Source: Anaeromyxobacter terrae (GTDB lineage: Bacteria; Myxococcota; Myxococcia; Myxococcales; Anaeromyxobacteraceae). From it: a stretch of 64,000 nt of DNA. The translations under genes were made by a program, and so were the position numbers. The stretch is from positions 61,135 to 125,134 of the forward strand of contig NZ_JALCYY010000006.1 of assembly GCF_022690685.1 (NCBI RefSeq). Direction: 5' to 3'. The notes under the pieces are model-generated. The model ran no database searches, was not told the DNA's origin, and worked only from the letters and a program-made list of their open reading frames with translations. Below, piece after piece: positions 10,045-30,368 of the stretch (the first letter of the stretch is position 1; the number at the start of each line of letters is the position of its first letter).

Positions 10045-10063
10045 AGCAGGACGCGGTCCTTCC

Positions 10064-10678
10064 TCACGGCGTGCCGCGCGGCGCGTCCCCCCGGCTCGCG
10101 CCCACGGCCGCGGCGATGTCTCGGGCCAGCGCCCCGATCGCCCTGCTCAGCGCCGCCACCGTGGCAGCGACCCCCGGCGCGGCGCCGCGCTCGCGCGCGG
10201 TCGTGACCCCCTGCTTCGCGAGGGCGCCACCCCTGCGCACGGCCCATCGCGCCTCGAGGACGGCGCTCCCGTCCGGCTCGCCTTCGAACCGCAGCACCTC
10301 GACGGAGACCGACCACTCCGGCGAGGCGCTCACCGGCCAGGGCCACCCGAGCACCTCGCGCGCAGGGACGGCCGCTCGGAGATCCTCGGCGAGCACGCCC
10401 GTGAAGAGGACGTCGAGCGGAGCGGCCCACCGATCGGCGCTCGCCACCTCGACGCGCGCGGGTCCGGCACGCGTCACGATCTCCGGCCGGTCGAGGTATG
10501 CGGGCAGCCGCACCGGGCCGACGCCGAGCACGGGCATCGGCGGGCGGGTCGAGCCCGGTGCGCTCGCCTCGGCCTCGAGGACGTACCAGCGGGCCGGCTC
10601 GGATCGCGGCCCGAGCGTCAGGCATCCGGCGACCAGCGCGAGCGGCGCCGCGAGGGCGAGCGCGATCGCCCTTCTCAT
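10064..10678 (-). CDS. ABC-transport auxiliary lipoprotein (PqiC/DUF330-like)
   Basis: This 204-residue protein has a lipoprotein signal peptide ending in LVAGC (Cys near 19). The mature part has the ABC_trans_aux pattern: WYVLEAEA, then VLGVGPVRLPAYLDRPEIVTR, and a repeated alpha-helical tail. In PqiC-like partners of MCE systems the protein is anchored in the outer membrane and docks the MCE subunit. The ATG (10676-10678) overlaps the TGA of the MCE gene (ATGA), and it is the last gene of the four-gene operon, so a role in the same lipid-transport machine is very likely. Confidence 0.8.
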   Translation of the reverse strand: MRRAIALALAAPLALVAGCLTLGPRSEPARWYVLEAEASAPGSTRPPMPVLGVGPVRLPAYLDRPEIVTRAGPARVEVASADRWAAPLDVLFTGVLAEDLRAAVPAREVLGWPWPVSASPEWSVSVEVLRFEGEPDGSAVLEARWAVRRGGALAKQGVTTARERGAAPGVAATVAALSRAIGALARDIAAAVGASRGDAPRGTP

Positions 10679-11631
10679 CGCCGGTCCTCCGCGCGGCCTC
10701 GGACGAGCGCGCTCGGATCGCGGTCGAGCCTCTCCGCGAGGTTGCGCAGCGTCCGGCTGGTGCTCTGGAGCTCGGCGAGCGTCCTCGTGAGCTGCCACGC
10801 GAGCGGCGAGGCGGGATCGACGAGCTCGTCCACGTGCCGGACGGCGGACTCCGCGCTCTCGAGGGTCGTGCGGAGCTGGACGACCGCGGCGCGCGTGTCG
10901 GCGGTGAGCGGCGGCACGCCGGCCTCGATCGAGCGCGCCGCCCGCCCCACGGACGCGATCGCGGCGTCCGCGGCTCGGAGCGTGCTCGGCACCCCCGCGA
11001 CGGCGGCGTCGACGCCTCCGGCGGTGCGCTCGAACGAGCGCGCGGCGCGGCGAAGGTCGGCGACGAGCCCGTCGAGATCCAGGGCCTGGAGCTTCGTGAG
11101 GAGCTTCGAGGCGTCCGCCTGGAGCGCGGCCAGCCCGGGCTCGGAGTAGACCGGGATCTCCGGGTACGGGAGCCGGAGCGGTGACGGCTTCGCGGGCGGC
11201 GCCTCGGGCAGGATGTCGAGGGTGACGTAGCGGCGGTTCGAGAGGTAGCTCTCGAGCGCGAGCCGCGCGCGGAGGCCGTGGTCGATCAGCGTGCGCATGG
11301 CGCGCTGGTCCGAGAGGTCGATCTCCCCGCCGATCTCCCGGATCCGCGTCTGGTTGAGCTCGATCACGACCGGCATGCGCAGCTCGCGCAGGGGCTCCGT
11401 CGCGGAACCCATCGAGAGGTGGATGCTCGTGACGCGTCCCACGGGGACCCCGCGGAACTTCACCGGTGCGTCCAGCTCCAGGCCCGCGAGGTCCTCGGAG
11501 AAGACCACCACGAACTGGACCCGGTGCTGGAGGACACGACCGGCCCCGAGGTACACCGCCGCGACGACGCCGAGCGCGACGGCCGCGATCACGAACGCGC
11601 CGACCAACTTCGGATCCCACCTCCGTGGCAT
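10675..11631 (-). CDS. mlaD: MCE-domain lipid-binding protein of an Mla-type transporter
   Basis: This 318-residue protein has one N-terminal transmembrane helix (about 8-28) followed by an MCE domain (VQFVVVFSEDLAGLELDAPV..FRGVPVGRV). A long helical/coiled region rich in Ala, Arg and Thr comes after, as in periplasm-spanning MCE proteins. It forms the periplasmic ring that shuttles phospholipid between inner-membrane ABC core and outer membrane. ATG at 11629-11631 has GGAGG at ideal distance. It lies 10 bp after the ATPase gene and overlaps the lipoprotein gene by 4 bp. It is longer than E. coli MlaD and nearer in layout to myxobacterial and chloroplast TGD2-like forms. Confidence 0.92.
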   Translation of the reverse strand: MPRRWDPKLVGAFVIAAVALGVVAAVYLGAGRVLQHRVQFVVVFSEDLAGLELDAPVKFRGVPVGRVTSIHLSMGSATEPLRELRMPVVIELNQTRIREIGGEIDLSDQRAMRTLIDHGLRARLALESYLSNRRYVTLDILPEAPPAKPSPLRLPYPEIPVYSEPGLAALQADASKLLTKLQALDLDGLVADLRRAARSFERTAGGVDAAVAGVPSTLRAADAAIASVGRAARSIEAGVPPLTADTRAAVVQLRTTLESAESAVRHVDELVDPASPLAWQLTRTLAELQSTSRTLRNLAERLDRDPSALVRGRAEDRR

Positions 11632-16151: not shown

Positions 16152-16320
16152 CCGAGGGCGGGTGGACGGCGGGCGCCTGGGCGACTGGACGTCACCGGGC
16201 GGCCTCGCGCGCGGCCGAGGCGGCGGGGGTCTTCGCGCGGGAGCGCGGAGGCGCCATAATGCCCGCTCGCCGCGCGCGGTTCACGGCTGGAGGACGACGG
16301 CCGCCCGACGGGAGACCGGC

Positions 16321-18003
16321 ATGAAACTCGCGCTGCAGCTCACCGAGGCGCTCTCGGTCTTCCTCGTCATCTTCTACCTGTACTGCCGGTCGCCCGCGTT
16401 CCGTCCACTCAAGCCCGACTGGCCCCGCCCCCGGGGCAAGATCCGCCTGTACCTCGTCTTCAGCGGCATCGCGATCCTCGGGAACTACCTCGGCGTGCCT
16501 GTCGTGGACGGGCAGGCCATCGTGAACGCGCGGGCGGTCGGCTCGACGCTCGCCGGCCTGCTCGGCGGCCCCGCGCTCGGGATGCTCGTCGGGGCGACCG
16601 CGGGCCTGCACCGCGTGACGGCGCTCAGCGGCGCGGCCGCGTTCCCGGGCGCCGTCTCCACCACGCTGGAAGGGCTGCTCGGCGGCCTCGTGCACCTCGC
16701 GTTGAAGCGCCGGCCCGAGCAGCTCATGACCCCGCGGGTCGCGTTCGCGACGACGTTCGTCGGCGAGCTCCTCCACATGTTCATCGTGCGGTACCTCACG
16801 TCGGCGCCGCCCGAGCAGGTGATCGCGATCGTGAAGGCGATCGGCCCGCCGATGGTGATCGCGAACCCGATCGGCGCCGCGCTCTTCATGGCCGTGCTCC
16901 TCGAGCGGCAGCGCGAGCAGGACCGGGTCGCGGCGACGTCCTCGGCGCGCGCCCTCAAGGTCGCGGACCGGACGCTGCGCCTCCTCGCGCGGGGGCTCGG
17001 GCGGGAGGCCGCCGGCGAGCTCGCCGCGATCATCCGGGAGGAGACCGGCGTCGGCGCGGTGGGGGTCACGGACACCGAGCGCGTCGTCGGCTGGTCCGGG
17101 ATGGGCTCCGACCATCACCTGCCAGGGAACCCGATCGCCTCGCCGTACACCCGCCAGTCCATCGCGGAGAACGCCGTCGTCTTCGCCGACGGCGTCCGGC
17201 AGGCCTACGACTGCACGGTGTCGCCGAGCTGCCCGCTCAACTCGATGGTGATCGCGCCGCTGCAGGTGGACGGCGCCGTCGTCGGGACGGTCCAGCTCTT
17301 CGAGCCGCGCGGGCGCCGCTTCCTCAACATGAACAAGTCGCTCGGCGAGGGGCTCGGCGCCGTGCTCTCGAGCCAGCTCCTCATCGCGCGCTACCAGGAG
17401 CAGAAGAGCCTGCTCGTCATGTCGGAGCTGAAGCTCGCCCAGGCGCAGGTGAACCCGCACTTCCTGTTCAACGCGCTCAACACCATCATCGCCATCCTGC
17501 GCCGCGACGCCGACCGCGCGCGGGACCTGCTCGTCCACCTCTCGAACTTCTTCCGGAAGAACCTGAAGCGCTCCAGCGACGTGTCGACGCTCCGCGAGGA
17601 GCTCGAGCACGTCGGCGCGTACCTGGAGATCGAGAAGGCGCGGTTCGAGGGCCGCATCGCCGTCGAGACGGACGTCGATCCGGAGCTCCTCTCGCTCGAG
17701 ATGCCCGCGTTCACGCTCCAGCCGCTCGTCGAGAACGCCTTCAAGCACGGGCTCTCGGAGGTGCTCGGGGAGGGCCGCGCCACCATCCGCGCCTACCGGA
17801 AGGATGGCGAGGCGCTCGTCGAGGTCGAGGACAACGCCGGCGCGTGGACCGAACCGCGGGAACGCGCGGGGCTCGGCATGCAGATCGTCGACAAGCGCGT
17901 GAAGAACCGCTTCGGAGAGGCGTTCGGCCTGTCGGTCACGTGCGTGCCGCACGAGCTGACGCGCGTGACGGTGCGCCTCCCCGGGAAGGGAGTCGCGGCG
18001 TGA
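16321..18003 (+). CDS. btsS: LytS-family sensor histidine kinase, BtsS-like
   Basis: This 560-residue kinase has an N-terminal 5TM-5TMR_LYT sensor (about 1-205; TTLEGLLGGLVH and IGAALFMAVLLER are typical), a GAF-like region (about 225-350) and a His_kinase/HATPase module with AQVNPHFLFNALNTI (phospho-His380). Segments such as SDHHLPGNPIASPYT, VSPSCPLNS and ALKVADRTLRLL closely track E. coli BtsS (YehU), a high-affinity pyruvate receptor, rather than LytS of Gram-positives. The ATG at 16321 follows an AT-poor leader; the upstream frame is non-homologous. The TGA overlaps the regulator's ATG (TGATG). Context includes an L-lactate permease downstream, which fits carboxylate sensing. Confidence 0.92.
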   Translation: MKLALQLTEALSVFLVIFYLYCRSPAFRPLKPDWPRPRGKIRLYLVFSGIAILGNYLGVPVVDGQAIVNARAVGSTLAGLLGGPALGMLVGATAGLHRVTALSGAAAFPGAVSTTLEGLLGGLVHLALKRRPEQLMTPRVAFATTFVGELLHMFIVRYLTSAPPEQVIAIVKAIGPPMVIANPIGAALFMAVLLERQREQDRVAATSSARALKVADRTLRLLARGLGREAAGELAAIIREETGVGAVGVTDTERVVGWSGMGSDHHLPGNPIASPYTRQSIAENAVVFADGVRQAYDCTVSPSCPLNSMVIAPLQVDGAVVGTVQLFEPRGRRFLNMNKSLGEGLGAVLSSQLLIARYQEQKSLLVMSELKLAQAQVNPHFLFNALNTIIAILRRDADRARDLLVHLSNFFRKNLKRSSDVSTLREELEHVGAYLEIEKARFEGRIAVETDVDPELLSLEMPAFTLQPLVENAFKHGLSEVLGEGRATIRAYRKDGEALVEVEDNAGAWTEPRERAGLGMQIVDKRVKNRFGEAFGLSVTCVPHELTRVTVRLPGKGVAA

Positions 18004-18707
18004 TGCGCGCCCTGATCGTCGACGACGAGCTGCACGCGCGCGAGGAGCTCGAGTCGCTCCTCCTCGAGACGGGCGCCTTCACGATCGCGGGCCTGTGCGG
18101 CAACGCCGTCGAGGCGATCCAGGCGATCCGCAAGCAGCGTCCGGACGTGGTGTTCCTCGACATCCAGATGCCGGCGATCTCCGGGTTCGAGCTCCTCTCG
18201 ATGCTCGACGACGACGAGCTGCCTGCCGTCGTCTTCGTCACTGCCCACGACGCGTTCGCGCTGCGCGCGTTCGAGGAGCGCGCCCTCGACTACCTCCTGA
18301 AGCCCGTCGGGCGGGAGCGCCTCGCGAAGACCGTCGAGCGGCTGCGAAGGCTCCCCGGCGTGGAGGCCCGGCAGGGCTACCCGCGCGCCGAGATCCGGCG
18401 CATCCCCTGCCTCGCCGCGCGCGCGATCAAGCTCGTCGACCTCCCGGACGTCGAGTTCGTGCGGTCGAGCGAGGCCGGCGTGTACGTCGTCACCGCGAAG
18501 GCGGAGCTCTTCACCGAGCTCACGCTGAAGGTGCTCGAGGAGCGCGCCGGGCTCGTCCGCTGCCACAAGCAGTTCCTCGTCAACGTCGACCAGGTCGATC
18601 AGATCAGCATCGACGAGGGGCTCGCGGTGATCCGGACCCGGTCCGGGAAGGACGTACCGGTGAGCCGCCGGCACCTGCCCGCCGTCAAGGCGCGCCTCGA
18701 CCTCTGA
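18003..18707 (+). CDS. btsR: LytTR response regulator, BtsR-like
   Basis: This 234-residue regulator has a receiver domain (acidic pocket IVDDE, phospho-Asp53 in FLDIQMP, Lys in LLKPV) and a C-terminal LytTR DNA-binding domain (about 130-232; AELFTELTLKVLEER, VRCHKQFLVNVDQV, VPVSRRHL). The segments DVVFLDIQMPAISGFEL and the IPC motif before the LytTR domain match the BtsR/YehT branch. It is translationally coupled to the kinase by a 1-bp overlap. The predicted target would be an uptake gene; in E. coli BtsR activates a pyruvate transporter. Confidence 0.92.
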   Translation: MRALIVDDELHAREELESLLLETGAFTIAGLCGNAVEAIQAIRKQRPDVVFLDIQMPAISGFELLSMLDDDELPAVVFVTAHDAFALRAFEERALDYLLKPVGRERLAKTVERLRRLPGVEARQGYPRAEIRRIPCLAARAIKLVDLPDVEFVRSSEAGVYVVTAKAELFTELTLKVLEERAGLVRCHKQFLVNVDQVDQISIDEGLAVIRTRSGKDVPVSRRHLPAVKARLDL

Positions 18708-18867
18708 TGGCGGCCGTCGCTTGCGTGGAGCCGTCGCGAGACGCGCGATGCCGTCGCCGAGCCGGGCGCTCCGAGGAGTGAGCACCGCAGGCGTGCCTGC
18801 AAGGCCTCATCATTCACCACATCCTGAGGCTGTCGACCGTGCACGCGGTCGCCATTCGACGAGCGGC

Positions 18868-19419
18868 TCAGCGCGCGCGGCGGTTGGGGCATCGACGGGG
18901 GTGAGCACGCGCGGCCCGGGAACGCGCCCTTCGGAGTCGTACGGTCGGCAGCGCCGCGCTCGCCTGGGCGGGCGCGCGCTCCGGGAGCTTGCGGATCCCC
19001 GCGCGCGGCGCGGTGCGGGCCTGGATGGAGACGACGAGGTGCTCGACCTCGGCGCGGGTCCGGTACGCGGCGCGCGCGACGAGATCGTCCGCGTTCTCGT
19101 CAGTGAGAACCTGGCCGAGGAGCGCCACGGTGGACAGGCAGACGCGCCCGTCGCGCAGCGGCGCCTCGAGGCTCGGGAACCGGCGCAGCACGCGCATGGC
19201 CTGGATGCGGCGGCCGGTGGCCCCCTCCCGGAGGTGGAGGACCTTCAGGCAATAGGCCCAGAGCGAGGCGTGCCCCGCCTCGACGAAGGCGCGCCGTCGG
19301 TCGAACTCGTCGAGGTGGAGGAGGAAGTCGACCTGAACGTTTCGTTCCTCTCCGGCGAGCTCGCGCAGGCGAACGGCGAGGACGCTCGAGTCGAGGGAAG
19401 CGGGAACGGGCGCGGACAT
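18868..19419 (-). pseudogene. Truncated HNH-endonuclease-family protein (N-terminal part only)
   Basis: This 183-residue frame begins with a good ATG (19417-19419). It carries the helical N-terminal domain typical of a multicopy HNH-nuclease family I associate with Anaeromyxobacter and relatives (LRELAGEERNVQVDFLLHL, HASLWAYCLKVLHLREGAT, LSTVALLGQVLTDENADDL). Intact members continue for 100-200 residues to a Cys/His-rich HNH domain. Here the frame ends in an Arg/Ala-rich tail with no HNH residues, and no other frame downstream restores them. It is most likely a decayed copy; a short regulator derived from the family cannot be excluded. Confidence 0.65.
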
Positions 19420-20241
19420 GGAGTGCACCTCCAGATGCACCCTTCGTAACACGCGTTTTCGGGAGCTCCGGAGGCGCTCCAGGCTCGTGCGAGCGCGGCT
19501 TTCTTCGGCCTCCCCTCGGCAACCCCCTGCCGCGGTCGAACGCGCGCGCCCAGCCCATTTGCGCGCGCGTGAGTGGCCCTGGCGCGCCGCCTCGAACCCA
19601 GGAGCGGAATTTCGGCGAGGAGCAGTCAAGGGCGTTCATTCACGCACCGCAACTGGGACCGATTGTTCACGTCGCCATGAAGCGCGTAAGACGTCCGTCA
19701 CTACCTCTGGCGATAGTTGTTACGTTCAGTGAACTACGCAAGCTCATGCGCCGCTTCCGGGCTCGCCTCCGCGCGTGGGGGGCGCGAGCGCCCACGGCAA
19801 GACGCCTCGGTGAAGAGACGCTCACCTGCACCCGCCACTCCGGCTGGGCCGCTCGGAACCGTGCCCGGACAGCGCGATCCCACCTCGTCGATGCCCGAGT
19901 CCGATGTGCGCATCCATACGCCGGTCCATCGGCGTACGGCCCTCCGGGCGGTCGGCTCTGAGATGTGATGAGTCGAGCCCGCCAAGGCACGTCGAGGAGC
20001 GCAACGACGAGGCCGCCCGGCGCAGGCAGGCAGCGTGCGTCGCAGCAGGCTCCATGCGAGCGGGTGGCGCCATGAAGCTCGCCGGTCACCCTCGCCCACG
20101 CGCCGCTCCCCGCCTGCCCGCCACCGGTCGCCCGGAACGGCCGCGGCCCTCGCGCGCGCCGTGCGAGACCTGGCAGCGACGCAGCCCGCCCTGCCGTGTG
20201 TCGCGCGCGCCGGGGAGACCTCCAACCACAGGGGACGACGC
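19420..20241. other. Long intergenic region, no supported gene
   Basis: About 820 bp separate the truncated HNH gene from the lactate permease. No frame shows coding character. A noticeably AT-richer island lies at about 19640-19745 and contains a perfect palindrome, GTTCA-G-TGAAC (19724-19734). The last ~100 bp would hold the permease promoter. This could be the remains of deleted genes or a regulatory region for the BtsSR-LctP set. Confidence 0.4.
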
Positions 20242-21909
20242 ATGACGTGGACCCAGAACTACGTGCCGCTCGGGAACCTCCATCTCTCCGCGCTCGTGGC
20301 GGCGATCCCGGTGGTCGTCCTCCTCGCCGCGCTGGCGTTCTTCCACGTGAAGGCGCACGTCGCGGCGCTGCTCGGGCTCGCGCTCGCCCTCGGCATCGCG
20401 GTCGGCGTCTACGGGATGCCCCTCGGCATGGCGGGCGCGACCGCCGCGTACGGCGCGGCCTTCGGGCTCCTGCCGATCGGCTGGATCATCCTGAACGCCA
20501 TCTTCATCTACGACATCACGGTGAAGACCGGGAAGTTCGAGGTGGTGAAGGACACGATCGGCGGCCTCGCCGGCGACCGGCGCATCCAGGTGCTCCTCAT
20601 CGCGTTCGCGTTCGGCGCGTTCATCGAGGGCGCGGCGGGGTTCGGCACGCCGGTCGCGATCAGCGCCGCGATGCTCATCGGCCTGGGCTTCAAGCCCCTC
20701 GCCGCAGCCGGCCTGGCGCTCATCGGCAACACCGCGCCCGTCGCCTACGGCGCGCTCGGCACGCCCATCATCACGCTCGCGAAGGTCACGGGCCTCAACG
20801 AGCTGGCGCTCTCCTCGATGGCGGGCCGCCAGCTCCCGCTGTTCTCGCTGATGGTCCCGTTCTGGCTCGTGTGGGCCATGGCCGGGTTCCGCGGGATGCT
20901 CGGGGTGTGGCCGGCGTGCCTCGTCGCGGGGCTCTCCTTCGCCATCCCTCAGTTCCTCGTCTCGAACTTCATCGGGCCGAACCTCGTCGACATCGTCGCC
21001 GCGGCGTCCTGCATCCTCGTGACCTACGGCTTCCTCAAGCTGTGGCAGCCGAAGGAGGAGTGGCGGTTCCCCGAGGAGCGCGCGCCCGAGGCGGCCGCCG
21101 CGCCGCAGCGGCGGTCGGTCGGCGCCGCCGCCGCGTTCCGCCGCCACACGTTCGGCGAGGCGTTCATGGGCTGGATGCCCTGGATCGTCCTCTCCGTCTC
21201 CGTGTTCGTGTGGGGCCAGCCCGCCGTGAAGACCTGGCTGAACGGGCTGTTCAACCCGACCTTCGACGTGCCGTTCCTCCACAACCTCGTCCTCAAGGCG
21301 CCACCGGTCGCGGCCAAGGTCCACCCCGAGGCGGCGCGGTACAGCCTGAACCTCCTCTCCGCCACCGGCACGGCCCTCCTCGTCGCCGGCCTGGTCGCGG
21401 GCCTGTGGCTGAGGCTCTCGCCGCTCACCCTCGCCAGGACCTACCTCGGCACGCTGAAGCGGGTCCGCTACTCGCTCCTGACGATCGCCGCGATGCTCGC
21501 CCTCGGGTTCACGACGCGCTACTCGGGCTCCGACTCGACGATGGGCCTCGCGTTCGCCTCGACGGGCTTCCTGTTCCCGTTCTTCTCGCCGCTCCTCGGC
21601 TGGCTCGGCGTGGCGCTGACCGGCTCCGACACGTCGTCGAACGTGCTGTTCGGGAACCTCCAGGTCGTCTCGGCCCAGCAGATCGGGATGAACCCGCTCC
21701 TCGCGGCCGCGTCCAACAGCTCGGGCGGCGTCATGGGCAAGATGATCGACGCGCAGAGCATCGTCGTGGCGTCGGTCGCGACGAAGCAGGACGGGCACGA
21801 GGGCGCCATCCTGCGCTACGTGTTCTGGCACTCGCTCGCGCTGGCGTGCCTCGTCGGCGTCGTCGTGTTCGCCCAGGCGTACTGGCTCGGCTGGATGGTC
21901 CCGCGCTAG
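20242..21909 (+). CDS. lctP: L-lactate permease (LctP/LldP family)
   Basis: This 555-residue multi-spanning secondary transporter of the LctP family takes up L-lactate (also D-lactate/glycolate in relatives) with protons. It begins with the family-typical W[21 protein letters not shown]. Also seen are [50 protein letters not shown] and [19 protein letters not shown], all LctP signatures, and about 13 hydrophobic segments. ATG at 20242 is preceded by AGGGGACGACGC. It is a single gene downstream of the BtsSR-like pair and probably feeds lactate/pyruvate carbon to the organism. Confidence 0.95.
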
Positions 21910-22060
21910 GCACGCCCGCAGGTCCGCGGCGTGAAGTGGCCGTGGACCGACAGCGCCGTACATCGCCGTGACCCGGGCGGCCCGGGGGGCCTCGTCCATG
22001 GGTGTTCCCGATTCGCGGGCGAACCTTCACGTTCGGCGACGTCACCGTGGGTCACCATTT

Positions 22061-22115
22061 TGCGTTTACACCCCATTTGCGCAGAGCCGGATCCTTGCGA
22101 CTCATCGTAAACGCA
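22061..22115 (+). promoter_or_regulatory. 9-bp perfect inverted repeat upstream of the FG-GAP/deacetylase gene
   Basis: TGCGTTTAC (22061-22069) and GTAAACGCA (22107-22115) are exact inverted copies 37 bp apart, in an AT-richer patch ending about 38 bp before the ATG of the large secreted protein. CATTTTGCG and CATTTGCG also occur close together. The repeat could be a dimeric operator or promoter element; function is inference. Confidence 0.4.
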
Positions 22116-22153
22116 CGGGCCGGCTCGGACGAGTCACCGCCAGAAGGGGACCC

Positions 22154-24919
22154 ATGCTGCGCATCCGCTCGCGCGCGCTCGCCGCGCTCGCCTCTCTCTC
22201 CGCCGCCGCTGTACCCGTCGCCGCGCGCGGAGCCTGGTCGTACGACCTCGCCAAGACCGTGGTTCCGCTTCCGGTGAACTACGCGCCAGCGCCTGTCGCT
22301 GCCGACTGGAACGGCGACGGCGTCCAGGACCTCGTCGTCGGGCTCTACCAGCCCTCGCTGTTCGGCGGCGTCGCGGTCTACCTGCGCGACGCCAGCGGCG
22401 CCCTCGGCCCCGCGACGAGCGCGTTCGCGAGCGGCAGCGCGGCGAGCGTGCTGCCAGCGAGCTACCATTACAGGCCCGCCGTCGCCGACTGGAATGGAGA
22501 CGGTCTTCCCGACCTGCTCCTGGGACAGCGCTCCGGCTCGCCAGCGGCCGGCGGCGTGCTGTTCTGCCCGAACACGGGGGCCGTGGGTGCGCCCGTGATC
22601 CACGGCGTGAACTGCCGTCGTCTGACGACGGCAGCGGGCGCGGTCGTGGGCGTCACCACCGGGAGCTCGTTCGGCTATCTCTCGCCCGAGGTCGTCGACT
22701 GGGACGGCGACGGCGATCTCGACCTGCTCGTCGGTACCGGCGGGCCCGCGAACGAGAAGGGCGTGCGTCTCTACCGGAACGTCGGGACCGCCCAGGCGCC
22801 ATCGCTCGCCGAGCCGATCTTCGTCGTGCAGCGCGGGGTGACGGGCGGGCTCGCCACCGAGACCTACTTCGCGCCCGCGGTGGCCGATCTCGACGGCGAC
22901 GGCGGCAGGGACCTCCTCGTGGCCGGGGCGCAGCAGGCACCGGGGGTGCAGGCGTTCTGGCTGTGGGAGTGCCGCGACGCAGGCACGCCGGGGGCGCCGC
23001 TCTTCCCGTCCTGCACCTCGTCCCTCGCCCACGGCCTCGTCCACAACGCCATCGACGCGGTCGACTGGGACGGCGACGGGACCGTCGACCTCCTGCGCGG
23101 GTTCTTCAGCGGGCTCATCGGGAACCCGGTCACGCTGCTCCACGGGAGCGCACCCGACACCGACGGCGACGGGCTGTCGGATCCGGTCGACAACTGCCCC
23201 GCCACGCCGAACCCGGCCGACATGAAGCTCGACCGGAGCAACCCGGTTCAGATCGACACGGACGGCGACGGCGCCGGCGACGCGTGCGACGACGACGACG
23301 ACGACGGGGACGGGGTCACGGACGCCAGCGACCACTGCCCGCTCACACCCGACGCGGCTCAGGGCGACGTGGACGGCGACGGGCGCGGCGACGCCTGCGA
23401 CCCCCACGACGACCGTCCTGGCGCGCCGGGCGTCGGCTCGTACGAGTGGCGCCAGGCCCACGAGACGCTGTGGGGGCGGAGGCCCGTGATCGTGCTCCGT
23501 GCCGACGCGCTCTCGATCGGCTTCCGCAGCGAGATCGCCTTCGCGCTCGCGCGCGAGGCGACGTCGCGCGGGATCGCGTTCTCGCTGGCGGTCATCCCCT
23601 GGAACGCCGCTCGGCTCGCGGGCTCGACCTCCGCGCCCTTCCTCTCCGAGATGGCGCGCCACCCGAGGTTCGAGACGGTGCAGCACGGGACGTACCATGC
23701 GTGCATGTACACGCCCGTGCTCACCGGCGCGGAGTTCGACTGCGGCATGGACTTCGCGCGCTCGCTGAACCTCATGTTCGTCGGCAAGGACGCGCTCGAG
23801 ACCGCCGTCGATCGGTCGGGCGCGACGCACGCGCTCGCCGGGTTCATCCCTCCCGAGGACCAGTACGACGACGCGGCGCTCGACGCGATCGCGGCGCTCG
23901 GCTACCGGTACATCGGGTCGAGCTACTCGGCGGAGAAGTCCTCGCTGTGGCTGGCGTACGTGGACGCGCGCGGCCTCGTCCACATCCCGTGGTCGCAGAC
24001 CGCTTGCGGCAACGGGGCTTCGCCGTGGATCGAGTGCCGCACGACGTCGCTCGAGGCGCACGCCGGGGTCGACTGCGCGGACGAGGCGGTCTGCAAGCCG
24101 ACGAAGGATGCGAAGAGCTACGAGCCGTGGAGCGACTTCGCCCTGAACACGCTCGCGGCGCGGTGCCGCTACGACATCGAGTCGCGCTATGGCGGCGGCC
24201 TCTGCTCGATCCTCTTCGAGCTCTCGTCGTACGACGACGGCACCAGCACCGGCGGGCTCGACCCGGTCGCGTTCGAGGGCTACCAGCGCGTACTCGACGA
24301 CCTGCAGGCGCTCGCGACCGAGAAGGACGCGGTCTTCATGACGCTCGGCGAGTACGCCGCGGCGCGCAGCATCGAGGACTTCGTGAAGCCCGAGATCGCG
24401 ATCGTCGCTCCGGCGGCGCGCGCGTACGGACACGCCGAGCTCGTGACGGTGGGCTTCGAGGCGACGGACGCGCTGAGCGGGGTGTTCGCGGTCTCGGCGA
24501 CGCTCGACGGGCGCCCGGTCGCGAACCGCGAGGTGCTCGATCTGCTCGCGCTGCCGCTCGGCAGGCACGTGCTCCGCGTCATGGCCGAGGACACCGCGCG
24601 CAACGTCGCCGAGCGTCAGGTGGCGTTCGAGGTCCGCTCCACGCTCGCGAGCCTCGAGGCGGCGGTCGTGCGCCTGCGCGCCGACGGGCGCATCGACTCG
24701 GACGGCGTCGCGACGAGTCTCCTCGCGAAGCTCGCGAGCGCGCGCAGCGCGCTGGACGCGGGGCGCCCCACCGTCGCGCGCAACATCCTCGCTGCATTCA
24801 CGAACGAGGTGGCTGCGCAGCGCGGAAAGCACATCGTCGCGACCGCCGCCGACCTGCTCGTCGCGGACGCGGCGGTGACGGAAGCCGAAATGCGGGTCGA
24901 ACCTCGCGCCCGCGATTAG
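22154..24919 (+). CDS. Secreted FG-GAP / thrombospondin-3 / deacetylase-like / FIMAH-domain protein
   Basis: This 921-residue exported protein has a signal peptide (about 1-26). Residues 40-330 hold four or five FG-GAP/VCBS calcium repeats (ADWNGDGVQDLVVG, DWDGDGDLDLLVG, ADLDGDGGRDLLVA). Residues 335-425 hold thrombospondin type 3 Asp-rich repeats (DTDGDGLSDPVDNCPATPNP and similar). Residues 430-730 form a polysaccharide-deacetylase-like barrel: LRADALSIGF, QHGTYH with His511/His515 in the metal-ligand pattern, and GFIPPEDQYDD. The next part is Ig/Big-like, and about 830-895 is a helical FIMAH-like tail (LRADGRIDSDGVATSLLAKL). It is probably a cell-surface or secreted glycan-acting protein with calcium-dependent folding. 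The start ATG at 22154 has GGGGACCC upstream. Catalytic competence is not certain because the canonical NodB first Asp-Asp is not clear. Confidence 0.8.
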   Translation: MLRIRSRALAALASLSAAAVPVAARGAWSYDLAKTVVPLPVNYAPAPVAADWNGDGVQDLVVGLYQPSLFGGVAVYLRDASGALGPATSAFASGSAASVLPASYHYRPAVADWNGDGLPDLLLGQRSGSPAAGGVLFCPNTGAVGAPVIHGVNCRRLTTAAGAVVGVTTGSSFGYLSPEVVDWDGDGDLDLLVGTGGPANEKGVRLYRNVGTAQAPSLAEPIFVVQRGVTGGLATETYFAPAVADLDGDGGRDLLVAGAQQAPGVQAFWLWECRDAGTPGAPLFPSCTSSLAHGLVHNAIDAVDWDGDGTVDLLRGFFSGLIGNPVTLLHGSAPDTDGDGLSDPVDNCPATPNPADMKLDRSNPVQIDTDGDGAGDACDDDDDDGDGVTDASDHCPLTPDAAQGDVDGDGRGDACDPHDDRPGAPGVGSYEWRQAHETLWGRRPVIVLRADALSIGFRSEIAFALAREATSRGIAFSLAVIPWNAARLAGSTSAPFLSEMARHPRFETVQHGTYHACMYTPVLTGAEFDCGMDFARSLNLMFVGKDALETAVDRSGATHALAGFIPPEDQYDDAALDAIAALGYRYIGSSYSAEKSSLWLAYVDARGLVHIPWSQTACGNGASPWIECRTTSLEAHAGVDCADEAVCKPTKDAKSYEPWSDFALNTLAARCRYDIESRYGGGLCSILFELSSYDDGTSTGGLDPVAFEGYQRVLDDLQALATEKDAVFMTLGEYAAARSIEDFVKPEIAIVAPAARAYGHAELVTVGFEATDALSGVFAVSATLDGRPVANREVLDLLALPLGRHVLRVMAEDTARNVAERQVAFEVRSTLASLEAAVVRLRADGRIDSDGVATSLLAKLASARSALDAGRPTVARNILAAFTNEVAAQRGKHIVATAADLLVADAAVTEAEMRVEPRARD

Positions 24920-25024
24920 GCTTCCTCCCCGCCGCCCGGGCAGGCCATGACCCGGTCGCCGGCCATCGCGCGGCGCCACGACCCGACCATGACCGATCAC
25001 GCGACCCGGAAGGAATCCGCGCCC

Positions 25025-25525
25025 ATGCCTTCACGCCGTCTCGCCTCCATCCTTGCCGCCGCCGTCGTGCCGGTGCTCGCGAGCTGCGCCTCGGCGCGAC
25101 CGCACGCCGATGCCGAAGCTGGACGCCCGGCTGTCGAGGGCCGCGTCGCGGAGCTCTTGCGGCGGTACGCCGAGGACGATGCGGACGGCGTCCTGCGCCT
25201 CGTCGACCCCGCCGGCTTCATCGCCTACGGAAGCGATCTGTCCGAGGTCGTGCGCACTCCCGCCGAGCTGCGACGGCTGATGGCAGACGACTTCGCGCTC
25301 TGGCGCAGCGCCACGTTCGGCGCGGTGCGCGACCTCGACGTGCGCGTCGACGGTGCGCTGGCCACTGCGTACTTCCACGTTCCGTTCTCCGCGGGCGGGC
25401 GGCCGCCGGTCGTGGTGCGCTTCAGCACCACCTGGCGCAAGTCCGAGGGTCGATGGCTGCTGACGCAGATCGCCAACACCGTGCCGACGGTCGGCTCGTC
25501 CGCACGCGAGCTCATCGGACGTTAG
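25025..25525 (+). CDS. SnoaL/NTF2-like lipoprotein
   Basis: This 166-residue protein has a lipoprotein signal peptide (MPSRRLASILAAAVVPVLASC, Cys21). The mature domain looks like a DUF4440/SnoaL cone fold: RVAELLRRYAEDDADGVLRLV at the start and TTWRKSEGRWLLTQIANTV at the end. Such proteins bind small hydrophobic ligands or are simple isomerase-like folds; no catalytic residues can be assigned. The ATG at 25025 is preceded by GGAAGGA. The upstream in-frame ATG at 24947 would bury the signal peptide and is unlikely. Confidence 0.7.
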   Translation: MPSRRLASILAAAVVPVLASCASARPHADAEAGRPAVEGRVAELLRRYAEDDADGVLRLVDPAGFIAYGSDLSEVVRTPAELRRLMADDFALWRSATFGAVRDLDVRVDGALATAYFHVPFSAGGRPPVVVRFSTTWRKSEGRWLLTQIANTVPTVGSSARELIGR

Positions 25526-25664
25526 GCCGGGTGTCTCGCGATGACGGGAGCGAACCGCGCCTGTAGACGGTCTCGAACGTCTCACACGTGAGGAGCGCCG
25601 GTGTGGCGCGCTGCAACTCCGGAGGGGGTTGCGAGCGAGGCGCGTCGCCCATAATCACGAGGAC

Positions 25665-26195
25665 ATGCTCGCCTACGTCTTCTGGCACTGGCCGGCGCCC
25701 ACGGTGGACGCCGCACGCTACGCAGAGTCGCTCGTCGCGTTCCACCGCGCACTCGCGTCCACCCCTCCTCCCGGCGTGCGTTCGTCGCGCGTGTACGAGC
25801 TGGAGGCCGCGCCGTGGCTGCCGGTCGCGCGCGCGTTCGAGGACTGGTACCTCGTGGACGACTTCGCCGCGCTCGGCGCGCTGAACGAGGCCGCTGTCTC
25901 GGGAGCTCGGCGCGAGCCGCACGACGCCGCGGCACGGCTGGCGGGCGGCGGCCACGGCGGCGTCTACCGCCTCCTCGCGCCGGCCCGGGGCGGCACCCTG
26001 CCCCGCACGACGTGGTGCTCGAAGCCTGGCGGCGCCTCGTATCCCGAGTTCGTCGCGCAGCTTCCGCCCGGGGAGACGTGGCAGCGCCAGATGGTGCTCG
26101 GGCCCGCGCCGGAGTTCTGCATCATCGGGGTGGACGCGGCGGCCGCCCTCGGCGGCGTGGCGGTCGCGGCCCGGAAGATCCACGCGTCCCCGTGA
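25665..26195 (+). CDS. Conserved hypothetical protein, possible dimeric alpha/beta-barrel
   Basis: This 176-residue protein is not recognised as an enzyme. It begins MLAYVFWHWP and has two aromatic-rich repeats: RVYELEAAPWLPVARAFEDWYLVDDF, and later LPPGETWQRQMVLGPAPEFCIIG. The alternation resembles stress-responsive/EthD-like dimeric barrel proteins. Start ATG at 25665 has ACGAGGAC just before it. It is cytoplasmic (no signal peptide), monocistronic, and convergent with the next gene across a strong hairpin. Confidence 0.6.
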   Translation: MLAYVFWHWPAPTVDAARYAESLVAFHRALASTPPPGVRSSRVYELEAAPWLPVARAFEDWYLVDDFAALGALNEAAVSGARREPHDAAARLAGGGHGGVYRLLAPARGGTLPRTTWCSKPGGASYPEFVAQLPPGETWQRQMVLGPAPEFCIIGVDAAAALGGVAVAARKIHASP

Positions 26196-26208
26196 CCGAT
26201 TCGCCGCG

Positions 26209-26244
26209 CTGAGGCGCGCGGGCCCCGCCGGGGAGCGCGCTCAG
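26209..26244. terminator. Bidirectional terminator hairpin
   Basis: CTGAGGCGCGC pairs with GCGCGCTCAG (one bulged G), with CCCC/GGGG pairing inside. The element lies 14 bp after the upstream plus-strand stop and covers the stop codon of the opposing lipoprotein gene, as expected for a terminator serving two convergent genes. Confidence 0.55.
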
Positions 26245-27572
26245 GGCCAGGTCCGCGAGATGGCGGCGAGGCACATCGGTCCGCCGATGCTCCCCGTCCG
26301 CCCCGCCGACAGCCTGCGGAAGCCCTGCTCGGCGAAGGTCCACCGGCACTGCCCGCCGACGAGCCACGTCTTCTCCACCGCGAGATCGAGACCCGCCGCC
26401 ACGTACGCGCCGCCCGTGACGCCGCTCTCGGTCACCTCACCGGGGAAGCCGAGCGTCGCGCCGGTCAGCGTGACCTTCGACACGAGAAGGGCCACGCCGG
26501 CTCCCGCCCACGGTTGGAGGATCCCGAGCGGCGCGATCCCTCGGATCCCGGCGGCGAACCCGAGCGACGACAGGCTCATGCGATCGCTCTTCGTCTCGAA
26601 CATCCCGGGTGGAGGGGCGGTGGTGGAGGAGAACTGACCGTACCCGTAGGTCAGGTCGAGATCGACGCCCAGCGACTGCATTCGGCGATACGTGGCGCCG
26701 AGCAGGAGCGCGATCCCGCCGCTCGGCTCGTCGAGGGCGCCGGGCTCGCCGCGCGGCGAGAACCAGCCCAGCGCGCCGCGAAATGCCAAGGTTCCCGGCA
26801 TCTGCGGTGCCGCCTTCACGACCGGCCTGGGCAGGACGGGCCGGGGCTCCCCCGCCTCCGTCGCCCACGGATCCTGCGCTCCCTCTGGCTCCCTCGGCGA
26901 GGGGGCCGGTGGCGCGCGCGGAAGCTCCGGAGCCGGCACGGCGGCGATGCCTCGGCTGTCCATCCAGGCGCGGACAGAGGCATCGGAGAGCAGCCGGTCC
27001 ACGAACGCGCGACCTGCCTCCTGGAGCGCGAGCGCGACCGCGTCGCCGATGCAGGAGCCGAGCGCCGGTGGCGGCTGCTCGCCGACGGTCTCCGTGGTCC
27101 AGCGCGCGATCGGCTCGCCGGCCGCGGTCGAGAGCTCCCAGCCGAGGGCGACGGTGGCGCGGCAGGCGGTCGCGTCGAACCCCTCGGGCGCGCGGAGCTC
27201 GAACGCGGCGAGCCGGACGTCGAGCACGGCGTCGATGCCCTCGGGCGGCGCGGTCGCCGAGAGCGGCCTCGTCCCGGCGAAGACGGCGGGGAGGAGCCGA
27301 TCGCACATGGCCTCGACGGAGCGGCCCACCGGCGCGACCGACCGGACGGAGGTCCATGCCCATCCTGGCCGCGAGGAGACGTCCTCTCGCCTCGCCAGTC
27401 CTGGCTCGAAGCGGACGCCCACCGTCGCCTCGATGCGCCGCGCGGGCGGCGGCTCGACGACGGGCTCCGGGATGGCGTGACGGTGCGTCAACGTGCATCC
27501 CCCGCACGCGAGCGCGACGAGCGCCCAGGTTGCCCGCGAGCACGATCGCGCCCTGCGCCGCTCTCCTGGCAT
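26241..27572 (-). CDS. Lipoprotein with C-terminal beta-barrel-like domain
   Basis: This 443-residue protein has a lipobox LVALACGGC near residues 16-25. A first domain (about 40-195) reads as a periplasmic module with two Cys residues, followed by a Pro-rich linker (about 210-250). The C-terminal half (about 265-443) has barrel-like strands: GGIALLLGATYRR, DLDLTYGYGQF, PWAGAGVALLVSK, GGAYVAAGLDLAVEKTW. A lipid anchor plus an outer-membrane-barrel-like end is uncommon. ATG at 27570-27572 was preferred to the GTG two codons upstream because GGAGG lies 5 bp before it. Function unknown. Confidence 0.68.
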   Translation of the reverse strand: MPGERRRARSCSRATWALVALACGGCTLTHRHAIPEPVVEPPPARRIEATVGVRFEPGLARREDVSSRPGWAWTSVRSVAPVGRSVEAMCDRLLPAVFAGTRPLSATAPPEGIDAVLDVRLAAFELRAPEGFDATACRATVALGWELSTAAGEPIARWTTETVGEQPPPALGSCIGDAVALALQEAGRAFVDRLLSDASVRAWMDSRGIAAVPAPELPRAPPAPSPREPEGAQDPWATEAGEPRPVLPRPVVKAAPQMPGTLAFRGALGWFSPRGEPGALDEPSGGIALLLGATYRRMQSLGVDLDLTYGYGQFSSTTAPPPGMFETKSDRMSLSSLGFAAGIRGIAPLGILQPWAGAGVALLVSKVTLTGATLGFPGEVTESGVTGGAYVAAGLDLAVEKTWLVGGQCRWTFAEQGFRRLSAGRTGSIGGPMCLAAISRTWP

Positions 27573-27668
27573 CCCCACCTCCGCCCGGAGAGCCTAGCAG
27601 GCGGGGAGATCGCTGTAACCCCTGGGGGGACTCCGCCTGGAGAGCGAGCGGCCGCCCCGGGCGTTGGG

Positions 27669-27890
27669 CACCTCGCGCTCGTGCGCGGCAAGCGCCTCGA
27701 TGCGGCGCTCGAGCGGTGGTTCGGCGCGCGCGACATCGCCGACACGTGGCGACCCTTCTTCTGCACGTCGGCGAACCTCACGCGGGCGCGCCCCGAGGTC
27801 CACCGGAGTGGCCCGCTCGCGCTCGCGCGTCGAGACCTCCGGCGATTCGTCGAGGAGGCCTCCCTCGCCGCCGCGGCGGACGTCGCGTGA
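27669..27890 (+). pseudogene. Remnant of a patatin-like phospholipase
   Basis: About 74 codons resemble the middle of NTE-type patatin-like phospholipases: ALVRGKRLDAALERWFG, then DIADTWRPFFCTSANLTRA and EVHRSGPL, where intact proteins have the IEDLW-PFFCVS-NLT and hydrophobic-HR-GPL stretch. The serine hydrolase elbow (GxSxG) and oxyanion part that should precede it are missing, and after HRSGPL the sequence loses similarity and stops. No start codon context is seen. I read it as a decayed fragment between a lipoprotein and a sensor kinase. Confidence 0.6.
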
Positions 27891-27944
27891 CGGGCCCGCG
27901 GCGGGAGCAGGATCGGCGCGAGCGAGGAGCCTCGAGCCGGGTCG

Positions 27945-30368
27945 TCAACTTGCGCAGGACGGGCGCGCCGACGTCAGCCCGGAGCTCGTCGAACGCGCGC
28001 CGGTCGCGGACGGAGAGGTCTCGGCGTAGGAGCGGATGACCTGTGCGATCTCCTCCGGATCCGGCGGCTTCGCCACATGCCCGTCGAAGCCGGCCTCGGT
28101 CGCCTTCGCCACGTCCTCCGGCTGCGCGTACCCGCTCACGGCGACGATCCGGGCAGCCGTGCCGCGGCCGCGAAGCTGCCTCGCCACCTCGTAGCCATCC
28201 ATCCCGGGCAGGCCGATGTCGCAGAGGATGAGGTCGGGGGCGTACTCGCGCGCTTTCGTGATCGCGCTCGGCCCGTCGTAGGCGACCTCGGCGTCGTGCC
28301 CCAGCATCTCGACGAGCTGCGCGAGGGTCTCGGCGGCGTCCTCGTTGTCGTCCACGACGAGGACTCGCCGCCGAAAAGGTGCGGGTCGCGCAACCGCGGC
28401 GCCGTCTCGCTCCGCGACGGCGGCCGTGGTCGCAGCGCCGAGCGGGAGCCTGACGACGAAATCCGTCCCTTCCCCCGTGCCGCCGCTGACCGCAAGGACC
28501 TCGCCGCCATGCAGAGCTACCAGGCCCTTCACGAGGGCGAGCCCGAGCCCGAGCCCACCGTCGCTCCGCGCGAGCGTCTGCGTCGCCTGGGTGAAGGGCT
28601 CGAAGATCGACAGCAACATGTGCGGCTCGATGCCGGGCCCGGTGTCTTGGACGTGCACCACCGCATGGCGTCCGTCGGCGCGGACCGTGAGCGTCACGCG
28701 GCCGCCCGCGGGCGTGAACTTCGCGGCATTGCTGAGCAGATTCCCGAGCACCTGCGCGAGCCGGGTGTCGTCGCCGTTCACCACGAGGCGTTCGTCCGGC
28801 ACGTCCACCTTGAGGTCCAGCCCTCGAACCTGCATCAGCGCGCGGTGGTCCTCGGCGGTCCGACGCCCGAGGGCGGCGAGATCCACATCCGTGCGGCGCA
28901 GCTCGATCTTACCCCGCCCGATGCGCGTGACATCCAGGAGGTCGTCGACGAGCCGCGTGAGGTGAGTGAGCTGCCGGTTCACCACCTCCTTCGCTCGGCG
29001 CGCCTGTTGCCCCGCCGGCTCGGCGCGGTCGAGGATGTAGAGCGCGTTCCGGATGGGAGCTAGCGGGTTCCGCAGCTCGTGCGAGAGCATCCCGAGGAAC
29101 TCGTTCTTGCGCTGGTCGGCGTCCCGCAGCCGCAGATTCGCCTCGCGAAGCTCCAGCTCGGTACGCTTGCGGTCGGTGATCTCCTGTATGGCGACGCTGA
29201 TCCCGAGGATGCGCCCCTCGCCGTCCTTGATCGGAACCCACCGCTCGTTCCAGAACCGCGCGACGCCGGGCTGGGTGGTCGTGGTCCCGGTGAACTCGAC
29301 GTCGAGGAGCGGCTCCCCGGTCTCCAGGACCTTGCGGAGCGCAGCTTCGGCCTGCTCGCCGACGTCCGGCAGCAGCTCACGCGGGGTCTTGCCGATGTGA
29401 GCCTCCAGCGAGAGGCCGTCGACCTCGGCGGCGCGCTCGTTCAGCCGCACCCAGCGCAGGTCCCGATCGAAGACGCACAGCCCCACGGGCGCGTTTGCGT
29501 AGATGGCCTCGATCTCCGCGAGCTGCCCCCGCGCGCGCTGCTCGCTGACCCGGGCCTGTTCCTCGCTTTCGCGCATCGCCGCCTCGGCGCGCTTCCGATC
29601 CTCGATGTCCAGCGCCGCGCCGATGAGCCGAGCCACCCGCCCACCCTCGACGATCGGCGCGAGGCGGCTCAGGAACCAGCGGTAGGTACCGTCCGCGGCG
29701 CGGTAACGCAGCTCGGCGTGCTGCGGAGCGAGGCTCTTCAGCGCCCGCAGTCGGCACTCGCCCGCGGCGGCCACGTCGTCCGGGTGCAGAAACCCGAGCC
29801 ACCCCGCGCGTGCCGTCGCCTCGAGGTCGAGGCCGGAGAACGCGGTCCAGGCCGAGTTGACGTACTCGGGCCTGCCGTCCGGTTCGACCAGGCACACGAT
29901 CTGCGGCATGGCTTCGATCACGAGCCGGAGCCGTTCCTCGAATCCGGACTCGGCCCGCCCTGGGTCCGTTGCGGGCGCGTTCCCGGCGTTCGCCGCGGCC
30001 GACGGGACCGACACGCCTTGATCGTCGCCGCGCGGCGAGACCTCCCGCGCCGTGATGAGGAGCCCCGTGCCGCCGTCCAGCGGGACGGGATCGATGCTCC
30101 CCTCCCACCACGTCTCGCGCCCCTCCACGTGCCTCGCTTGCCGAGGCACCTCGACGTGGTGCCCGGCGCGGGCGTGCGCGTGCATCGCGAGCACCGTGTC
30201 TCGCGTCGCGGGGGAGAACGCGACGATGTCCGCGCCGAGGACATCGTCGTGTGGGAAGCCCGTCGAGCGCAGCCACTCGGCGTTGGCGCGAAGGATGGTG
30301 CCGTCCGCGGCGACGAGGCACCGCCCCACGGTGCGCTCATCGAACAGGAGATCCAGGAGATGGCGCAT
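27945..30368 (-). CDS. Hybrid sensor kinase: three PAS domains, HisKA, HATPase, receiver
   Basis: This 807-residue soluble kinase has PAS 1 (about 10-105), PAS/PAC 2 (about 145-265; PEYVNSAWTAFSGLD, ends GAALDIEDRKRAE), a short coiled linker, PAS 3 (about 285-400), HisKA with MLSHELRNPLAPI (His430), HATPase_c (NAAKFTPAGG, LARSDGGLGLGLALVKGL) and a C-terminal receiver (VLVVDDNED, phospho-Asp717 in CDIGLPGMDGYE). No transmembrane segment is present, so signals are likely intracellular (redox, ligand). The receiver may act as an internal phosphate sink or pass phosphate to a missing Hpt protein. No output regulator is adjacent. Confidence 0.93.
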   Translation of the reverse strand: MRHLLDLLFDERTVGRCLVAADGTILRANAEWLRSTGFPHDDVLGADIVAFSPATRDTVLAMHAHARAGHHVEVPRQARHVEGRETWWEGSIDPVPLDGGTGLLITAREVSPRGDDQGVSVPSAAANAGNAPATDPGRAESGFEERLRLVIEAMPQIVCLVEPDGRPEYVNSAWTAFSGLDLEATARAGWLGFLHPDDVAAAGECRLRALKSLAPQHAELRYRAADGTYRWFLSRLAPIVEGGRVARLIGAALDIEDRKRAEAAMRESEEQARVSEQRARGQLAEIEAIYANAPVGLCVFDRDLRWVRLNERAAEVDGLSLEAHIGKTPRELLPDVGEQAEAALRKVLETGEPLLDVEFTGTTTTQPGVARFWNERWVPIKDGEGRILGISVAIQEITDRKRTELELREANLRLRDADQRKNEFLGMLSHELRNPLAPIRNALYILDRAEPAGQQARRAKEVVNRQLTHLTRLVDDLLDVTRIGRGKIELRRTDVDLAALGRRTAEDHRALMQVRGLDLKVDVPDERLVVNGDDTRLAQVLGNLLSNAAKFTPAGGRVTLTVRADGRHAVVHVQDTGPGIEPHMLLSIFEPFTQATQTLARSDGGLGLGLALVKGLVALHGGEVLAVSGGTGEGTDFVVRLPLGAATTAAVAERDGAAVARPAPFRRRVLVVDDNEDAAETLAQLVEMLGHDAEVAYDGPSAITKAREYAPDLILCDIGLPGMDGYEVARQLRGRGTAARIVAVSGYAQPEDVAKATEAGFDGHVAKPPDPEEIAQVIRSYAETSPSATGARSTSSGLTSARPSCAS

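Follow-up and report, generated by a model that had tools for sequence, protein, structure and literature searches.

A secreted-type protein of Anaeromyxobacter terrae joining calcium-loop repeats to a NodB/CE4-fold barrel with a putatively reduced metal site

Gene and Domain Organization

The stretch of DNA analyzed here, referred to as the window, comprises 64,000 nucleotides of the Anaeromyxobacter terrae genome (NZ_JALCYY010000006.1, positions 61,135 to 125,134), and the gene of interest occupies positions 22154..24919 of its + strand. The gene encodes a multidomain, secreted-type protein of 921 amino acids (aa) whose architecture combines calcium-loop repeats with a glycan-modifying fold: FG-GAP repeats are followed by TSP3 repeats, a NodB/CE4-type barrel with an altered active site, an immunoglobulin-like (Ig-like) domain and a FIMAH domain. 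The open reading frame (ORF) is real and its coordinates are right. A chance occurrence of the protein is excluded, because a homologue from a Nitrospiraceae genome (L075) is 54% identical over its full length and has the same domain order.

A Shine-Dalgarno-like sequence, AGAAGGGGA (22142..22150, +), ends 3 bases 5' of the ATG at 22154, and the translation, read by eye, begins with a signal-peptide-like N-terminus (aa 1-25; 22154..22228, +). The FG-GAP_3 repeats (aa 40-330; 22271..23143, +), which probably form a propeller, were above the Pfam cut-off in four stretches (PF13517, E 9.3e-19, 68.2 bits versus 26.9). The TSP3 repeats (aa 335-420; 23156..23413, +) were likewise above it in three stretches (TSP_3, PF02412, E 2.4e-8, 33.9 versus 25), and their PDB matches were COMP and thrombospondins. 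Nine calcium-loop motifs were read in these two blocks, five in the FG-GAP repeats (aa 51, 112, 182, 245 and 304) and four in the TSP3 repeats (aa 335, 368, 382 and 405). At the C-terminus, the FIMAH domain (aa 831-907; 24644..24874, +) was also above the cut-off (PF22888, E 2.8e-8, 34.7 versus 24.8). An earlier reading of this DNA from its letters alone (the sequence-only reading) had proposed a secreted protein with calcium-binding propeller repeats, Asp-rich TSP3 repeats and a FIMAH-like tail; the secreted type, the FG-GAP and TSP3 blocks with their calcium loops, and the tail were borne out. To its list we add the Ig-like, Big_7-like domain between the barrel and the FIMAH domain (aa 746-830; 24389..24643, +), whose Big_7 match was below the cut-off in the window protein (E 8.7e-4) and above it in L075 (E 4.7e-5).

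The middle block (aa 424-762) had no Pfam or PHROG match, and a single-sequence PDB search with it returned nothing below E 0.75. Rfam at its gathering threshold gave no match in 18000-28000, and a scan of 21850-25650 for promoters and terminators found none.

Relatives and Rarity of the Architecture

Relatives were obtained by a degenerate motif profile scan of a species-genome collection, in which each locus was picked by a pattern built around either HG..H or PP; 12 of the 75 matching stretches encode relatives. The known subfamily has four members: the window protein, L075, L079 (Pontiellaceae) and L081 (Anaerolineales). The other nine relatives have, by eye, RxDD-type barrels, and all five that were scanned with Pfam (L076, L077, L080, L083 and L084) were above the cut-off for DUF2334 (PF10096).

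L075, from Nitrospiraceae metagenome-assembled genome bin899 (CP070644.1), is the closest in design to the window protein. It has 920 aa, the same whole domain order, 62% identity in the barrel, and the same RADALS, HGTYH and FEL motifs; it differs in its gene neighbours and in that its FIMAH match is just under the cut-off (24.5 versus 24.8) and its Big_7 match over it. L079 (Pontiellaceae B12227, 1077 aa) and L081 (Anaerolineales UBA2181, 1184 aa) share the FG-GAP, TSP3 and barrel blocks, with RIDALS, QHGTYH, PP and Glu at the position called MT5. They differ from the window protein in having a long insert after strand 1, barrels just 24-28% identical to its own, and other C-terminal parts without a FIMAH match (Big_1/Big_2-like in L081; both below the cut-off). 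L079 and L081 are 52% identical to one another in the barrel and 48% overall.

The sequence-only reading had considered the domain order unusual, and the searches for the same order in other genomes agree: the whole order was found in two genomes and the FG-GAP-TSP3-barrel core in four. Searches for the barrel block in 99 relatives and 195 genomes of the phylum returned the window's own genome only. A hidden Markov model (HMM) of the four subfamily barrels matched one genome, in each case the seed, among 195 of the window's phylum, 295 of the phylum of the Nitrospiraceae member, 380 of that of the Anaerolineales member and 367 of that of the Pontiellaceae member, a total of 1,237 genomes in which the latter three sets are samples drawn from larger groups. 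The idea of a common architecture thus found no support in the sets searched. More members probably exist, since the genome sets were sampled and the contig scan was limited by its patterns. The first scan of the collection, with exact peptides, gave 14 pattern matches and no relatives; such scans undercount, as a homologue of 61% identity exists. A permissive search (E<=10) of the 195 genomes gave matches in 62, including the window's own, and the alignments listed were chance-like, with one GTPase-like by eye.

Among mobile elements, no plasmid was found to have the window barrel, and no plasmid or phage that of L081. Viral contigs yielded no relatives with A2, A3, A4 or the profile of the four subfamily barrels (A6), and three with the profile of the DUF2334 rows (A9), which were kept out of the alignments. 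On one IMG/VR viral contig, the MT1 motif of a DUF2334-type protein (L095) is DFDD, which unites the DxD and DD patterns described below. In the literature searched, no paper was found that combined FG-GAP, thrombospondin type 3 and polysaccharide deacetylase, or DUF2334 with polysaccharide deacetylase, and the term FIMAH was found only in two papers on uropathogenic E. coli that are, by their listing, unrelated to the domain.

Fold and Family Placement of the Barrel

The barrel (aa 428-743; 23435..24382, +) is of the NodB/CE4 fold, as judged from its relatives and a predicted model, and belongs to a rare subfamily adjoining DUF2334. The deacetylase-like barrel of the sequence-only reading, described there as having an HGTYH pair, was upheld. 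Profile-profile comparison (hhalign) of A6 with A9 gave a probability of 98.4% and E 6.3e-15 over 116 columns that exclude MT1 and MT5. AlphaFold2, run on a 12-row alignment, produced a distorted (beta/alpha) barrel of the NodB type, with a predicted local distance difference test score (pLDDT) of 74.3 and a predicted template modelling score of 0.81; run on the single sequence of aa 424-770, it gave a pLDDT of 37.8. The best PDB match of the model by VIA was 3rxz (Z 22.4, root-mean-square deviation 2.9 over 243), which was also the best by Foldseek (E 8.2e-8). Further VIA matches were 3qbu (21.0), 1z7a and 3s6o (20.1 each), PuuE allantoinase (3cl6, 20.0) and ArnD (19.0), with Agd3 (6nwz, Z 16.7) and SpPgdA (2c1g, 16.2) lower. 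GH57 enzymes also scored, by VIA and Foldseek, as did alpha-mannosidases by Foldseek, matches that are expected of related barrels. With the sequence profile alone, every PDB match had E >0.01, the best deacetylase reaching 0.013 (A7), and the top PDB match of A9 was an APC subunit (E 0.03). The profile similarity between A6 and A9, the model and the structural matches rule out a chance HGTYH in an unrelated fold.

DUF2334 is the nearest known family, with homology at the profile level and RxD, HGxxH and PP in common; its rows have RxDD and the MT5 His, whereas the subfamily has RxDA and Glu. At the DUF2334 gathering cut-off, the window barrel had no match and L075 fell short (21.6 versus 26). 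With CE4, CE18 (Agd3) and CE21 (PelA) the barrel shares the NodB fold, an MT1 Asp, HxxxH and the MT3 Pro. These families have two MT1 Asp residues and a catalytic-acid His, while the window barrel has a single Asp and Glu689, and so lacks the combination of two MT1 Asp, HxxxH and catalytic His that marks CE18 and CE21. The resemblance to PuuE allantoinase is one of fold only, the protein context being different.

Among 31 near relatives of the window genome, DUF2334 matches were found in 14 at E<=0.001 and in six over the cut-off, with two adjoining copies in a genome of the same genus (G004). A like fold also occurs on an archaeal virus: the turret protein of Haloferax tailed virus 1 (PDB 8qpg) matched the barrel with Z 17.4.

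The Active-Site Region

The active-site positions were compared in an alignment of 12 rows, the four subfamily members and eight DUF2334 proteins, on which three MAFFT modes agreed. R449, D451, H511, H515, P566, P567 and D572 were present in all 12 rows, and position 693 was aromatic in all of them. Hence both metal-ligand positions of the MT2 motif HGTYH (aa 511-515; 23684..23698, +) are kept, as is the MT3-like proline pair (P566-P567; 23849..23854, +). The MT1-like motif R449-A450-D451-A452 (23498..23509, +) retains one Asp, and at position 452 the second Asp of DUF2334 (8/8 rows) is replaced by Ala (4/4 subfamily members). At the MT5 position, the catalytic-acid His, found in all eight DUF2334 rows and in five of five rows of a DxD-type family, is Glu689 in all four members (24218..24220, +). 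This column is anchored by a Gly seven residues before and an aromatic residue four after (window, L079, L076 and L077), and in the model E689 closes strand 683-689, as H511 does strand 506-511. The sequence-only reading had left it to be checked whether a metal site is present in the barrel, and this is supported in part: HxxxH remains, as does a single MT1 Asp, but all four members have Ala452 and Glu689, the weight of Ala452 depending on the MT1 register considered below.

Several proteins outside the alignment were also read at these positions. L086 was left out of A7, its open frame stopping before MT5, and has RFDD at MT1. In the Pfam-found DUF2334 proteins L009-L013, by eye, the second MT1 residue is Asp and an MT5 His is present (5/5); the first MT1 residue is E in L009, and both L010 and L011 have H. 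L017 has KADD and the MT5 His. The DxD-type rows (L014, L015 and L018-L020) represent a deacetylase-like family (SIDLDAL...HTFSH...NLELHG) that is recurrent in relatives of the window genome. We do not claim a further conserved His ligand: H610 corresponds to F in L079 and L081 in three MAFFT modes, and the H636 column shifts with the MAFFT mode, BLASTP pairing GLVH with GMFH.

The meaning of Ala452 for the loss of a metal ligand depends on the register of MT1. In excerpts of the published reports, the DD-type enzymes Agd3 (D377-D378; PMC7229062) and PelADA (D262-D263; PMC13254593) use the first Asp as base and the second to hold the metal. The excerpts place the metal Asp two residues on in PelA (D528, D530; PMC12022489), and for HpPgdA they describe Asp14 as the ion ligand and Asp12 as contacting the water (PMC3084791). 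If D451 is read as the base (DD), one ligand would be missing; if it is read as the metal ligand (DxD), the triad would be complete. In either register, the subfamily could fill the role of the base Asp or that of the metal Asp, but not both. In the DD register the first D falls at PF01522 profile position 14, as it does in four of six PF01522 matches of the window genome. If ungapped, the leading D of the RxDD motif also falls there in L077, L080 and L083, the three of the five Pfam-scanned DUF2334 rows whose PF01522 match reaches MT1. Ungapped VIA ranges put D451 on D377 of 6nwz and on residue 275 of 2c1g, again in the DD register. The subfamily profile was strongly similar to DUF2334 (98.5%, E 1.8e-15) and not to the five DxD rows (0.25%, E 0.24), and for this reason we lean to the DD register in our comparison of the sequences. 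The replacement of His by Glu689 is independent of this choice, since His occupies the column in the five DxD rows as well.

Interpretation of the Metal Site

Based on the alignments and the model, we favour the interpretation, at a probability of roughly 0.5, that the gene encodes a secreted, calcium-stabilized glycan esterase- or deacetylase-like protein with a reduced Asp-His-His-Glu site. In such a protein, the FG-GAP propeller would bind a surface polysaccharide or exopolysaccharide, the TSP3 repeats would act as a calcium-filled spacer, and FIMAH would be a C-terminal module of secreted proteins. In the barrel, H511 and H515 together with one carboxylate would hold a divalent metal, the other carboxylate would serve as general base or acid on the metal-bound water, and an acyl group, probably acetyl, would be cleaved from the glycan. 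The third ligand may be Glu689, the residue closing strand 7, in place of the lost strand 1 Asp, an assignment we put forward tentatively and consider unlikely to be right in that exact form. The interpretation is favoured by the same two differences from DUF2334 being fixed in members whose deep branches are just 24-28% identical, and it is the simplest one under which function would be preserved. As to the reach of the MT5 position, excerpts of PMC13254593 describe the MT5 His of Bacillus cereus PelADA (chain A) as coordinating Zn with D263, H350 and H354, so that a side chain at MT5 can reach the metal, and describe the MT5 residue of IcaB as a bifunctional acid-base.

Several observations weigh against this interpretation. 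In the excerpted reports, Agd3 mutants of the second MT1 Asp (D378N) and of the MT5 His (H668A) each abolish measurable activity (PMC7229062), and an Ala mutant of the metal Asp of PtPelA is without detectable activity (PMC12022489). The model is only moderate (pLDDT 74, with aa 615-659 below 50). Conservation at HG..H and PP is partly built in, because the search patterns around these motifs selected the members; positions 449-452 and 689 are outside the patterns and therefore free of such selection. A scan of eight neighbouring ORFs revealed no glycan operon. The starting points of the VIA ranges disagree, that of 3qbu putting D451, ungapped, on Asp14, the HpPgdA metal ligand. Four joint alignments with the five DxD-type rows align D451 with the second D of DxD; column 452 holds G, G, A, S and A in those rows (5/5 G/A/S), so that an Ala there may be ordinary.

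The 3qbu range and the joint alignments would also fit a version of the favoured interpretation in which D451 itself is the third ligand, D451-H511-H515 forming an ordinary DxD-type triad and the base and acid alone differing. We regard it as slightly less likely than a Glu689 ligand, as the subfamily is far nearer to DUF2334 than to the DxD-type rows and the PF01522, 6nwz and 2c1g registers disagree with it. If it were true, the idea of ligand relocation would fall. That idea, in its boldest form, is of a new carbohydrate-esterase family in which the third ligand moved from the MT1 Asp to the MT5 Glu, so that D451 would be the base of a His-His-Glu site delivered to a glycan by a calcium-filled FG-GAP-TSP3 arm, in a cassette moved between phyla; we offer it as a doubtful proposal, between the two ligand assignments in likelihood.

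The barrel might instead be a pseudoenzyme, devoid of metal-dependent hydrolysis and serving as the glycan-binding domain of a calcium-dependent adhesin. Agd3 requires each of the two residues missing here, namely a second Asp in MT1 and the MT5 His (PMC7229062, in excerpt), the remainder of the protein consists of binding-type modules, and the same fold occurs in known CE4 pseudoenzymes (7bkf, 6hpa and 6hm9 by title; 4M1B in an excerpt of PMC10967932). A decayed site is harder to reconcile with 4/4 members retaining the MT1 Asp with its nearby Arg, the two His and the Pro pair, and with each replaced position holding one fixed residue rather than drifting, yet with n=4 drift may still have occurred; we judge this explanation possible, at the level of the Glu689 assignment. 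A hydrolase of a small or unusual substrate, metal-free or differently metalled in the manner of PuuE allantoinase, appears quite improbable to us. The PuuE structure and its relatives 1z7a and 3s6o were among the five best structural matches, and NodB-fold PuuE is described, in an excerpt of PMC10967932, as non-metal-dependent, but HxxxH is kept in the subfamily and fold similarity shows no function. The secreted type of the window protein, and its repeat and Ig modules, moreover give the barrel a context unlike that of PuuE.

CE4-type deacetylases determine how charged and how sticky cell walls and biofilm polymers are. The subfamily offers a natural test either of the rebuilding of a NodB metal site, as in the favoured esterase/deacetylase interpretation, or of the origin of a glycan-binding pseudoenzyme, and either outcome would be useful for annotating DUF2334-type proteins.

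Evolution of the Subfamily

In the tree, the four barrels formed one clade (99/98), within which two cross-phylum pairs with short end branches were resolved, the window protein with L075 (98/98) and L079 with L081 (100/99); six of the 12 inner branches were open, and L011, L012 and L013 were flagged as long branches. The gene was absent from all eight other genomes of the genus examined, one of which is 66% complete. The cross-phylum pairs and this absence suggest that the whole cassette may have spread horizontally. Composition gave no sign of a recent arrival of foreign DNA, the GC content of the gene being 0.726 against 0.718 for the window and its third-position GC content 0.935, with 0.865-0.993 in the neighbours.

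Neighbouring Genes and FIMAH Domains Elsewhere

A DUF4440/SnoaL-like gene (24947..25525, +), lipoprotein-like by eye, begins 27 bp downstream, and co-transcription with it is possible. Upstream of the gene, the paired genes of a LytS-type sensor kinase and a LytTR regulator (16162-18707) precede an L-lactate permease gene (20242-21909). Between the LytTR and permease genes, an ORF at 18868-19629 (-) had no Pfam match in the part tested (18868-19563); it resembles what we take to be a truncated HNH/DUF222-type piece. Further downstream, an ORF of 444 aa at 26241-27578 (-) is lipoprotein-like, with a CGGC lipobox-like N-terminus by eye, and had no Pfam match at E<=0.01.

FIMAH matches were present in 12 of 193 genomes of the phylum, and the domain forms the C-terminal tail of unrelated secreted-type proteins (L035, L036, L039-L042 and L044). 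These seven proteins, read from ten regions, were subtilase-like, HAF-repeat-like or nuclease-like by eye. Judged from these sequences, FIMAH is a mobile tail.

The neighbourhood of the Pontiellaceae member L079 is possibly glycan-modifying, as judged from its gene content. It holds a classical CE4 gene (TFDDG; PF01522, E 2.8e-34) at 9422-10891 (-), and a protein encoded at 5342-6070 (+) has a PEP-CTERM-like end just under the cut-off.

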